DNA of 64,000 bases from Acetanaerobacterium elongatum. Lineage in GTDB: Bacteria; Bacillota; Clostridia; Oscillospirales; Ruminococcaceae. Made by a program: the position numbers and the translations under genes. Shown piece after piece: positions 7,599 through 52,586 of the stretch. The DNA lies in assembly GCF_900103835.1 (NCBI RefSeq), contig NZ_FNID01000005.1, positions 1 to 64,000 on the forward strand, given 5' to 3'. Every line of letters begins with the position of its first letter. The first letter of the stretch is position 1. A model generated the notes under the pieces. It made no database searches, was not told the DNA's origin, and saw nothing but the letters and a program-made list of their open reading frames with translations.

Positions 7599-7748
7599 GT
7601 CTGCCTATGCCGCAGCTTTGTTTTTCGGTTTCCCGACAGTTTGTCTGCTAGCTTCGTTTCAGGCAGAAAACGGAGAGGCATCCGCCGAAGATTCGATACT
7701 CCTCTCTCCTCGTTAACCATACGGCAAATCCGCATGGTGCTTGGCGCT
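7599..7748 (-). ncRNA. glmS ribozyme-riboswitch
   Basis: The minus-strand leader of glmS carries the conserved core of this self-cleaving RNA. AAAGCGCC gives a predicted cleavage between A (7748) and G (7747). It is followed by GGTTAACGAGGAG, GTATCGAA, and TTCGGCGGATGCCTC, matching the pseudoknotted P2/P2.1/P2.2 core of known glmS ribozymes. A distal stem pairing TCTGCC with GGCAGA (about 7599-7668) matches P4. In the known class, glucosamine-6-phosphate acts as cofactor; cleavage exposes a 5'-OH and the mRNA is degraded. Position and orientation relative to glmS are exactly as expected. Confidence 0.93.
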
Positions 7749-7978
7749 TTAAGGTACCCTGTATATATTGACTGCTTCCCACCTCCTGTTTTTCGGCCCT
7801 GTATGCTTAAAATGTCTACCCTCCTTACTTCTCATATGTTCAGGGCTATTTAATTATTATAGTGTATCAAGAAAATAAAATAAATAAGAATTTGTTAAAG
7901 TTAAGGGCTTGAGAAATTTTTTACAGTAGCCGCTTACAAATATGGCCTAACCGCTCCATCTTTTCCTATATTATTTTG
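7749..7978. other. glmS promoter region and intergenic spacer
   Basis: On the minus strand a TATAAT-like box lies near 7855-7862, about 110 bases before the ribozyme, with a poor -35. Otherwise I see no gene in this AT-rich stretch between the divergent transcription units. Confidence 0.4.
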
Positions 7979-50777: not shown

Positions 50778-50806
50778 TTGACAATTCATTCAAGACAATA
50801 TACTAT
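50778..50806 (+). promoter_or_regulatory. Promoter of the metY leader
   Basis: TTGACA (50778-50783), a 17-bp spacer and TACTAT (50801-50806) form a near-consensus promoter. Transcription should begin near 50813, about 36 bases before the leader ORF. Confidence 0.8.
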
Positions 50807-50848
50807 AATGCATATAGAAATAATAGTAATTTAAAGGAGCAACAGCAG

Positions 50849-50974
50849 ATGGCGATTCAGGACAGCAAACAGATTAACTATAATAAAATGTCTGTCATGT
50901 ACATGTACGGCTTCATGCGCCGTTACATGCGCTTCGCTATGCCTATAACCAAATACTGTTGCCAACCGATATAG
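50849..50974 (+). CDS. Met-rich leader peptide of the metY attenuator
   Basis: A 41-codon ORF has AAAGGAG nine bases upstream. After the start it has Met at positions 14, 17, 19, 23, 27 and 31, followed by a Cys-Cys pair at 37-38. It is too short for a known family and ends just before a hairpin and a terminator. The next gene is O-acetylhomoserine sulfhydrylase. This is the arrangement of leader peptides of amino-acid operons, with Met (perhaps Cys) as the sensed amino acid. It differs from antimicrobial peptides in having no export or processing genes nearby. Confidence 0.75.
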   Translation: MAIQDSKQINYNKMSVMYMYGFMRRYMRFAMPITKYCCQPI

Positions 50975-51016
50975 AGAGTTCCCGGTTCATTAATTATTGT
51001 CTCTAAGCCGGTTAGC
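50961..51016 (+). promoter_or_regulatory. Candidate antiterminator hairpin
   Basis: GCCAACCG (50961-50968, inside the last leader codons) can pair with CGGTTAGC (51009-51016, part of the terminator 5' arm) at 7 of 8 positions. TAGAGA (50972-50977) pairs perfectly with TCTCTA (51000-51005), stacking on it across a 3 by 3 internal loop. This fold excludes the terminator. Confidence 0.55.
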
Positions 51017-51036
51017 GTAGCGCTAGCCGGTTTTTT
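51008..51036 (+). terminator. Attenuator terminator before metY
   Basis: CCGGTTAGCG (51008-51017) pairs with CGCTAGCCGG (51021-51030) with one G-T pair and a 3-nt loop, followed by six T. It lies 70 bases before the metY start and after the leader ORF. Confidence 0.85.
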
Positions 51037-51105
51037 ATATTTTAAGGACTTTTATAGGAAATCCTATGAAATATATTATACTTAAGAACTGAAAGGTTGA
51101 TTGTC

Positions 51106-52389
51106 ATGAGTGAAAAAAAATTACGTTTCGACACCCTGCAGGTGCATGCAGGCCAAACCCCCGACCCTGCAACAGGAGCACGTGCGGTACCCATCTACCA
51201 GACCACCTCGTATGTATTTAAAGATTCCGCCGAGGCGGAGGGGCGTTTTGCCCTTACCGTGCCGGGCAACATCTACTCCCGCTTAACCAACCCCACAGTG
51301 GATGTGTTCGAGCAGCGGGTAGCAGCGCTTGAAGGCGGCGCTGCCGGCTTAGCCACTGCCTCCGGCGCTGCAGCGGTGACCTACGCCATTCAGAATATCG
51401 CGGGCGTGGGGGATGAGATTGTTTCGGCCAGCACCCTTTACGGTGGCACCTACCATCTGTTCGCCGATACCCTACCCAAGTTCGGCATCAAAACCACCTT
51501 TGTAAACCCTGACGATCCCGAAAACTTTCGCAAGGCAATAACCGAAAAGACAAAGGCTTTGTACATAGAAACCCTCGGCAACCCCGGTATCAATGTCATT
51601 GATTTTGACGCTGTGGGTAAGATTGCCGCCGAAAACGGCATTCCACTGATTGTTGACAACACCTTTGCTACCCCCTACCTGTTCCGCCCGCTGGAGCACG
51701 GTGCAAACGTGGTGATACATTCCGCTACCAAGTTTATTGGCGGACACGGTACCTCGATAGGCGGCATTATCGTTGATGGGGGTAACTTCAACTGGGCAAA
51801 CGGTAAATTCCCCGAATTTACTACCCCTGATAAGAGCTACCACGGCATTAAATATGCCGAGCTGGGTAATGTGGGCTACGCGGTAAAGATTCGTGCCCAG
51901 CTATTGCGCGATACCGGCGCCACCCTTACGCCCATCAATGCCTTCCTTTTCCTTCAGGGGCTGGAGTCACTCTCCCTGCGCGTACAAAAGCATGTTGCCA
52001 ACACGCAGCGCATTGTGGAGTTCTTAGAGAAGCACCCGAAGGTGAAGAAGGTAAACTACCCCGGCCTGCCCTCCAGCAAGTATTACTCCCTCGCCCAGAA
52101 GTACCTGCCCAAGGGCACAGGCTCCATCTTTACCTTTACGATTGACGGCGATGCATCCGATGCAAAGAGCTTTATTGACAACCTCGAAATCTTCTCTCAG
52201 CTTGCGAACGTTGCCGATGCCAAGTCGCTTGCTATCCACCCCTCCTCCACCACGCACCAACAGCTTTCATTGGAGGAACAGGCCTTAACCGGAACCTACC
52301 CGACAGATGTTCGTCTTTCCATTGGTGTTGAAGATGCTGATGACCTGATTGAAGACATTACGCAGGCACTCAATAAGGTATTTGCTTAA
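51106..52389 (+). CDS. metY: O-acetylhomoserine sulfhydrylase
   Basis: The 427-residue PLP enzyme makes homocysteine (or methionine) from O-acetylhomoserine and sulfide (or methanethiol). It has the Cys/Met-metabolism fold with TVQVHAG-like start ([19 protein letters not shown]), YSRLTNPT, the PLP-lysine motif [10 protein letters not shown] (Lys209) and [19 protein letters not shown] 51106 is chosen with GAAAGG upstream. It follows the leader-peptide attenuator and precedes cysK, which has its own promoter. Confidence 0.95.
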
Positions 52390-52417: not shown

Positions 52418-52462
52418 AAAAGTAACGGGATGGCGGATTATTTCTGCCATCCCATTACTTTT
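52418..52462 (+). terminator. Terminator after metY
   Basis: A 17-bp stem with one G-T pair (52418-52434 with 52446-52462) ends in TTTT and separates metY from the cysK promoter. Confidence 0.85.
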
Positions 52463-52505: not shown

Positions 52506-52534
52506 TTGACAAAATAGTAATTGAAGCGTATTAT
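52506..52534 (+). promoter_or_regulatory. cysK promoter
   Basis: TTGACA (52506-52511), a 17-bp spacer and TATTAT (52529-52534) form a promoter about 50 bases before cysK. It closely resembles the metY leader promoter. Confidence 0.75.
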
Positions 52535-52586
52535 AATAACATATTAAACATATATGAATTGTTTATATGAATGGAGGTAATTTCTA

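Follow-up and report, generated by a model that had tools for sequence, protein, structure and literature searches.

What controls transcription of metY, and does the Met-rich leader upstream of it take part? This question is raised by the stretch of DNA analyzed here (64,000 nt, referred to as the window), in which metY is preceded by a promoter-like site, a short open reading frame (ORF) and a terminator. The leader very probably controls metY through ribosome-mediated transcription attenuation in response to charged elongator Met-tRNA, a reading based on sequence comparison and modeling. The parts of this region, their recurrence in relatives and their folding were read from the sequence, whereas translation of the leader, the kinetics of the switch and its response to Met are deduced and are worded conditionally below.

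Architecture of the metY leader region

The following features were assigned in the window:

50778-50806, plus strand: candidate sigma-70-type promoter, TTGACA-17-TACTAT (by consensus match only)
50833-50839, plus strand: Shine-Dalgarno (SD) sequence of the leader ORF, AAAGGAG (read directly)
50849-50974, plus strand: Met-rich leader ORF of 41 codons, MAIQDSKQINYNKMSVMYMYGFMRRYMRFAMPITKYCCQPI (sequence, shuffles and relatives)
50888-50941, plus strand: putative sensor, Met codons 14, 17, 19, 23, 27 and 31 (0/1000 shuffles)
50961-50977, plus strand: 5′ strand of the predicted antiterminator, comprising the last leader codons, the stop codon and 3 nt past it (folding)
51000-51016, plus strand: 3′ strand of the predicted antiterminator, which from 51005 onward also belongs to the terminator 5′ arm (folding)
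51005-51033, plus strand: intrinsic terminator stem-loop of 13 pairs with a loop of 3, then a T run
51091-51096, plus strand: ribosome site of metY, GAAAGG (read directly)
51106-52389, plus strand: metY, the putatively regulated gene, O-acetylhomoserine sulfhydrylase family (TIGR01326, 641 bits against a cut-off of 495)

Direct reading confirmed the promoter proposed in the initial annotation (-35 TTGACA at 50778-50783, -10 TACTAT at 50801-50806, spacer of 17 nt, 10/12 consensus matches), as well as the 41-codon ORF with AAAGGAG and six Met codons between codons 14 and 31, which begins with ATG at 50849, ends with TAG at 50972-50974 and has Cys codons at 37-38. The terminator reported there is also real, however its stem occupies 51005-51033, and the span originally given, 51008-51036, corresponds to the inner stem plus the T run. 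Three hallmarks of an attenuator are thus present: an SD-preceded short ORF, a codon cluster for the amino acid of the regulated pathway, and an intrinsic terminator that separates the ORF from metY. Six internal Met codons and an SD in one ORF arose in 0/1000 dinucleotide shuffles of the leader, and 0/200 shuffles folded as stably as the whole leader (z -3.2).

A search of the window leader against Rfam returned nothing at gathering score, including the SAM aptamer of the S-box (RF00162) and the T-box (RF00230). The sole gathering-score Rfam match in the 64-kb window is a glmS ribozyme at 7599-7759 on the minus strand. Both of the other control types occur in the genome: a single S-box match lies upstream of metK (TIGR01034, 611 bits against a cut-off of 309), and 11 T-box matches are all located on contigs other than that of the window.

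Further elements surround the leader. Between the terminator and metY lies a perfect inverted repeat, ATAGGA-AA-TCCTAT, at 51054-51067, and AATCCAT is found at a similar place in several relatives. An AT-rich motif like AACATATATnnnnACTA occurs at 50810-50830, 3′ of the -10 box, and likewise in many leaders of families f1, f9 and f24, with AACATATATGAAT near the cysK promoter of the window (52547-52559); the motif pattern had no match in the metN-like leaders of family f13. This motif may be an operator of a CymR-like Rrf2 regulator. Downstream, a separate promoter-like site for cysK, TTGACA-17-TATTAT at 52506-52534, follows a terminator-like hairpin at 52427-52453, and cysK therefore need not depend on the metY attenuator.

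Met-rich leaders upstream of metY in related genomes

Loci encoding metY were gathered by E-value cut-off. Matches came from 25 of 61 relatives, 61 of 394 genomes of the order and 17 of 300 genomes of the family of G387, to which the best 80 named contigs among the matches listed were added; with duplicates and short upstream regions removed, 165 distinct sequences 5′ of metY, the window among them, were compared. Met-rich leaders, defined as ORFs that contain five or more internal Met codons and follow an SD of at least 5 bases, were present in ten (the window as L004, L022, L033, L034, L035 on the same contig as L109, L110, L121, L163, L164 and L176) and absent from the remaining 155. The Met count of each of the ten was reached in 0/1000 shuffles, and five Met codons were reached in 1/260 control intervals. 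An eleventh upstream, L166, has five internal Met codons with a weaker SD and falls outside the ten. Among the matches listed, 14 distinct relatives have a MetY that is 71-83% identical, and seven of these carry a Met-rich leader (L109, L110, L163, L164, L176, L033 and L034), or eight with L166. A terminator follows 3′ of each Met-rich ORF in the relatives, except in L035, where the hairpin is weaker. According to the initial annotation, its reading would have to be abandoned if relatives lacked the Met cluster and both folds; related metY leaders have both. Met-rich ORFs with alternating hairpins, the pattern that it recommended looking for, were seen in all nine related metY leaders that were folded, window included, while remote L121 lacked the pairing.

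Other metY upstreams differ in type. Two candidates were rejected as Met leaders, namely L165, for which two internal Met codons but no terminator were found, and L120, whose four Met codons were reached in 3/1000 shuffles, and L030, a close MetY relative, was not flagged by the leader scan. By reading, L005 appears to have a Cys-type leader. The Acetobacterium metY genes (L029, L031 and L032) follow a Cys-rich leader ORF (..HFCMCCSRTE..YC) at which the terminator scan found no terminator; as their MetY proteins are the closest among the matches listed (82-83%), leader type does not track gene relatedness. When the window leader peptide was searched against 197 genomes of the family, the window itself was the only match, and the leader peptide evidently diverges fast. 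An S-box precedes metY in L037, L039 and L041 (20 loci examined), so the same gene is elsewhere under another attenuator type. A second leader type consists of an SD-preceded short ORF with RM[CWYL], often within ..NFRNGRMCRC.., as in L132, L137, L149, L022, L127, L133 and L093. It was detected in 36/169 distinct metY upstreams vs 7/845 mononucleotide shuffles; L033 and L121 are also Met-rich, and the distance from the ORF end to metY is 24-68 nt in 25 of the 36. These leaders could encode a conserved arrest peptide or form a Cys/Met attenuator.

Leaders upstream of methionine uptake-like genes

A leader-peptide profile searched against 300 genomes (the family of G387) yielded 12 matches with E values of 1.3e-4 or lower, five of which are rows of the profile itself (L163, L164, L166, L176 and L110), and six of the other seven lie upstream of metN-like operons. 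Two leaders stand in tandem before a metN-like gene in L236; the leader is followed by an M20 peptidase and a metN-like gene in L237 and L239, by a PGA_cap-domain gene, metN-like and permease genes in L240, and by a metQ-metN-metI-like operon in L241. The leader of L238, before a galactonate-dehydratase-like gene, is a misfit to the methionine pattern. Weaker matches from an order-wide profile search (L243 and L247) are also upstream of metN-like operons. Among 12 profile-match stretches that were opened, L242, L244, L245 and L246 were judged false, as none showed a Met gene preceded by an SD, ORF and terminator in this arrangement. MetN was the best NCBIfam model for all seven ATPases tested, at 288-415 bits, which is under the curated cut-off of 499.7, and the genes are therefore named metN-like. 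A NIL domain was identified in 3/3 and a MetQ-type lipoprotein domain in 2/2 proteins tested. Genome G654 contains five leaders.

The MetN-like protein of L243 was then used as the query against 335 genomes (cut-off E 1e-95). Of 14 metN-like loci, nine (L248-L254, L256 and L259) have a terminator and an SD-preceded ORF with 6-10 internal Met codons, each reached in 0/500 shuffles, a proportion that is no rate for metN genes generally, since the query comes from a leader-bearing locus and the cut-off keeps its nearer relatives. L248 and L250 were already known from the leader search, and without them 7/12 loci were new with a leader. Four-Met ORFs occur in L255 and L258 (4 and 6/500 shuffles), L260 has one Met, and no Met leader ORF was found in L257 or L261. 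The same search gave no match in the genome of the window, and no Met-rich leader was found at the 8 ABC ATPase loci inspected there of 22 matches; thus, metY is the only gene of this genome known to follow such a leader. Its ABC ATPase closest to the MetN-like query, L262, has a T-box (L178) just upstream.

By locus, leaders are distributed over families f1, f9, f13, f18, f21 and f24 of the order. The genes that follow serve synthesis or uptake of Met, namely metY and, in relatives, metN-like and MetQ-like genes, with the exception of L238, and this agreement of codon and pathway is a further hallmark of attenuation. With somewhat less than even confidence, these leaders may constitute a Met-codon attenuator regulon that extends across six or more groups of family rank within a single clostridial order and controls metY and metN-like genes instead of S-box or T-box elements, many members reading Met and Cys and those like the window being ON by default. 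A regulon across several families would suggest that Met-tRNA is read for synthesis and uptake, with SAM sensing kept for metK.

Antiterminator and terminator folding

The competing fold of the initial annotation, in which 50961-50968 pairs with 51009-51016, stacked on 50972-50977 with 51000-51005, was reproduced base for base when 50955-51018 was folded, at -13.9 kcal/mol vs about -19.5 to -19.9 for the terminator. This antiterminator is exclusive with the terminator, overlaps the leader end, and recurs in relatives, but is not significant for the window alone: 21/200 and 35/300 shuffles were as stable, and the duplex had p values of 0.27 and 0.46 in two shuffle tests. It is individually weak, and its support comes from relatives.

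In nine of 11 metY leaders, the segment that begins at the last Met codon and ends with the terminator 5′ arm was folded; the remote L022 and L121 were left out. In all nine the antiterminator is in the same place, its last leader codons paired with the terminator 5′ arm, so that the layout originally described, with a shared arm and a start within the last leader codons, is general to this set. Values of z ranged from -1.26 (window) to -7.07 (L166), and the antiterminator is at least as stable as the terminator in 8/9, the window being the exception. Of the remote pair, L121, one of the ten Met-rich leaders, showed no antiterminator pairing, and the L022 duplex had a p of 0.34.

The covariation check proposed by the initial annotation gave a divided answer. 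In six aligned leaders, 90.4% of antiterminator cells are paired vs 35-54% when the strands are slid, however covariation against column shuffles is modest, with the paired cells reached in 14/500 shuffles, the covariation score in 33/500, and three pairs changed on both sides in 171/500. In L034, A-U at columns 9 and 95 is replaced by G-C, which retains the antiterminator pair, whereas the change in the terminator arm costs the terminator its pair at that column. Duplex energies compared with shuffles gave a Fisher chi-square of 42.2 (20 df) over 10 metY leaders, and pairing of the antiterminator strand with the terminator arm gave a Fisher p of 9e-6 over 27 leaders (11 before metY, 15 in metN-like loci, and L238), both of which overstate the evidence because the leaders are related and not independent. 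Individually, p was 0.1 or less in 10/27 leaders and above this value in 17/27.

Ribosome position and proposed mechanism

The effect of a ribosome on this choice was modeled. With the terminator 5′ arm just made, the antiterminator probability modeled for the window was 0.94 on ribosome-free RNA, 0.77 and 0.55 when Met31 or Met27, respectively, occupied the A site, and 0.0 when the ribosome stood at the stop codon, consistent with the proposal of the initial annotation that a ribosome at the stop codon masks the antiterminator arm. Once the terminator is complete, it is favored at equilibrium in every modeled ribosome state, so the switch must be kinetic. A kinetic decision between terminator and antiterminator is also found in known attenuators. 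Across the 27 leaders, with an assumed footprint of 34 nt before and 12 nt after the start of the A-site codon, arm pairing exceeded that of the stop state by more than 0.1 for the best Met stall in 25, for the median Met stall in 20 (leaving seven without this gain), and for ribosome-free RNA in 15, the near-zero pairing of the stop state being partly by construction.

With sufficient Met, the ribosome would run to the stop codon and mask 50961-50977, the terminator at 51005-51033 would form, and transcription would end. When Met-tRNA is scarce, the ribosome would stall within the Met cluster and leave 50961-50977 free to pair with 51000-51016 while RNA polymerase makes the terminator, and metY would be transcribed. 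If initiation of the leader fails, for example through scarce fMet-tRNA, the free RNA would also favor the antiterminator, making the window leader ON by default. This default matters because Met shortage would also lower leader initiation; if correct, it solves the problem that the same shortage starves initiation, as modeled in 15/27 leaders, and the default-ON reading would apply to part of the leaders only. The relatives' leaders, the folds and the ribosome-position model together support Met-stall attenuation as originally suggested.

Codon composition and alternative explanations

The composition of the leader peptides bears on which amino acid is sensed. Relative to nearby ORFs of at least 90 codons, a background that includes some spurious frames and some ORFs from false loci, the 27 leaders are enriched 9.9-fold in Met and 6.3-fold in Cys, and every other residue is at 1.3-fold or less. 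The Cys enrichment favors a variant of Met-tRNA attenuation, in which Cys and Met codons both stall the ribosome and shortage of either sulfur amino acid opens the gene, and modeled Cys stalls free the antiterminator in several relatives, e.g., L163, L237, L248 and L250. The Cys codons of the window lie at the antiterminator strand, however, where modeled stalls at Cys37 and Cys38 give an arm pairing of 0.0 and, by masking this strand, should not open the gene, so the added cysteine sensing suggested by the initial annotation is not borne out. The metN-like leaders L252 and L253 have a single Cys. A combined sensor is rather unlikely, and Cys sensing is possible in those relatives with alternating Met and Cys codons.

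In the eight close leaders, columns 1, 11, 14, 15, 18, 21 and 25 are invariably ATG while most adjoining columns vary, and dN is below dS in 27/28 pairs (mean 0.18 vs 0.62). Differences are spread near evenly over codon positions (184, 158 and 179), and differing codons are mostly nonsynonymous (305 vs 79 synonymous); the evidence for translation therefore comes from dN/dS and the invariant Met columns, from which the leader ORF is probably translated in this close group. The same dN and dS values would also suit a leader peptide that itself arrests the ribosome at a defined site on binding of Met, SAM or another ligand by the nascent chain, and the close group does share residues other than Met, e.g., a conserved Arg and those of MCIMCCGMPKM. 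Little except Met and often Cys, however, is common to this group and either the window or the metN-like leaders from other families, and the 9.9-fold excess of Met overall is the prediction of codon sensing and not of a fixed arrest motif, making an arrest peptide very improbable.

Even less probable is a role of the ORF as the gene of a small functional protein rich in Met and Cys, such as a metal binder, which the terminator just separates from metY. A dN below dS and the MC-rich pattern of L163, L164 and L176, taken here to resemble a metal-binding peptide, would suit such a protein, but none of the peptides tried matched NCBIfam or Pfam, the window carries Arg in a column occupied by Cys in 90% of ten aligned leaders, the last codons in relatives double as antiterminator, and the leader recurs upstream of both metY and metN-like genes. 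Control by a transcription factor at the promoter alone, to which the AT-rich CATAT-type motif near the transcription start of many leaders might point, is just as improbable, as an incidental leader ORF and terminator would account neither for the clustering of Met codons and its repeated occurrence upstream of metN-like genes nor for the antiterminator.

Comparison with known systems

Leader-codon attenuation is classic for Trp, His, Leu and other amino acids. Judged by its sequence, the window leader would work like such an attenuator, having its sequence-testable features, the antiterminator by way of relatives. The S-box riboswitch found before metY elsewhere serves the same gene, but senses SAM without a ribosome and was not found in the window leader.

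In Firmicutes, His leader attenuators with terminator and antiterminator hairpins are described in the available text of PMC9413887, and those in the portion of PMC2965389 consulted replaced T-boxes; they likewise use leader peptides with regulatory codons, but differ in having His codons and in serving his operons and hisS/hisZ. Sulfur amino acid codons are the proposed sensor in the cysS uORFC-8-2 of alpha-proteobacteria, with Cys codons in the uORF (PMC8632094, in part), and in the Cys leaders of Actinobacteria, where the excerpt of PMC1262725 states that conserved RNA structures were not seen before methionine operons; both differ from the present leaders in amino acid (Cys) and phylum. 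The part of PMC6892785 at hand contains nothing on a Met leader. A literature search, most subscription journals lying outside it, found no Met-codon attenuator in Firmicutes, the sole Met candidate being from Streptomyces.

This candidate is the metL leader peptide (MSTTSDRTPATEATTTPGARCMCRRMCAF) upstream of metNIQ in Streptomyces lividans, for which the available text of PMC8079986 reports no typical Rho-independent terminator. By its printed peptide, it resembles the present leaders in being a Met-containing candidate peptide upstream of methionine import genes; the RM[CWYL] leader type also resembles this printed peptide by eye. As the metL candidate is already published, the present case is a variant of ribosome-mediated attenuation, and what is new is the combination of sensed amino acid, genes served and lineage. 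Among sensed amino acids, Met stands apart in that it also starts the leader peptide. Compared with the part of the metL description available, which presents an actinobacterial leader with a leaderless start, two internal Met codons and no such terminator, the leaders described here have an SD, mostly 5-10 internal Met codons, an intrinsic terminator and often a foldable antiterminator, and they also serve metY.
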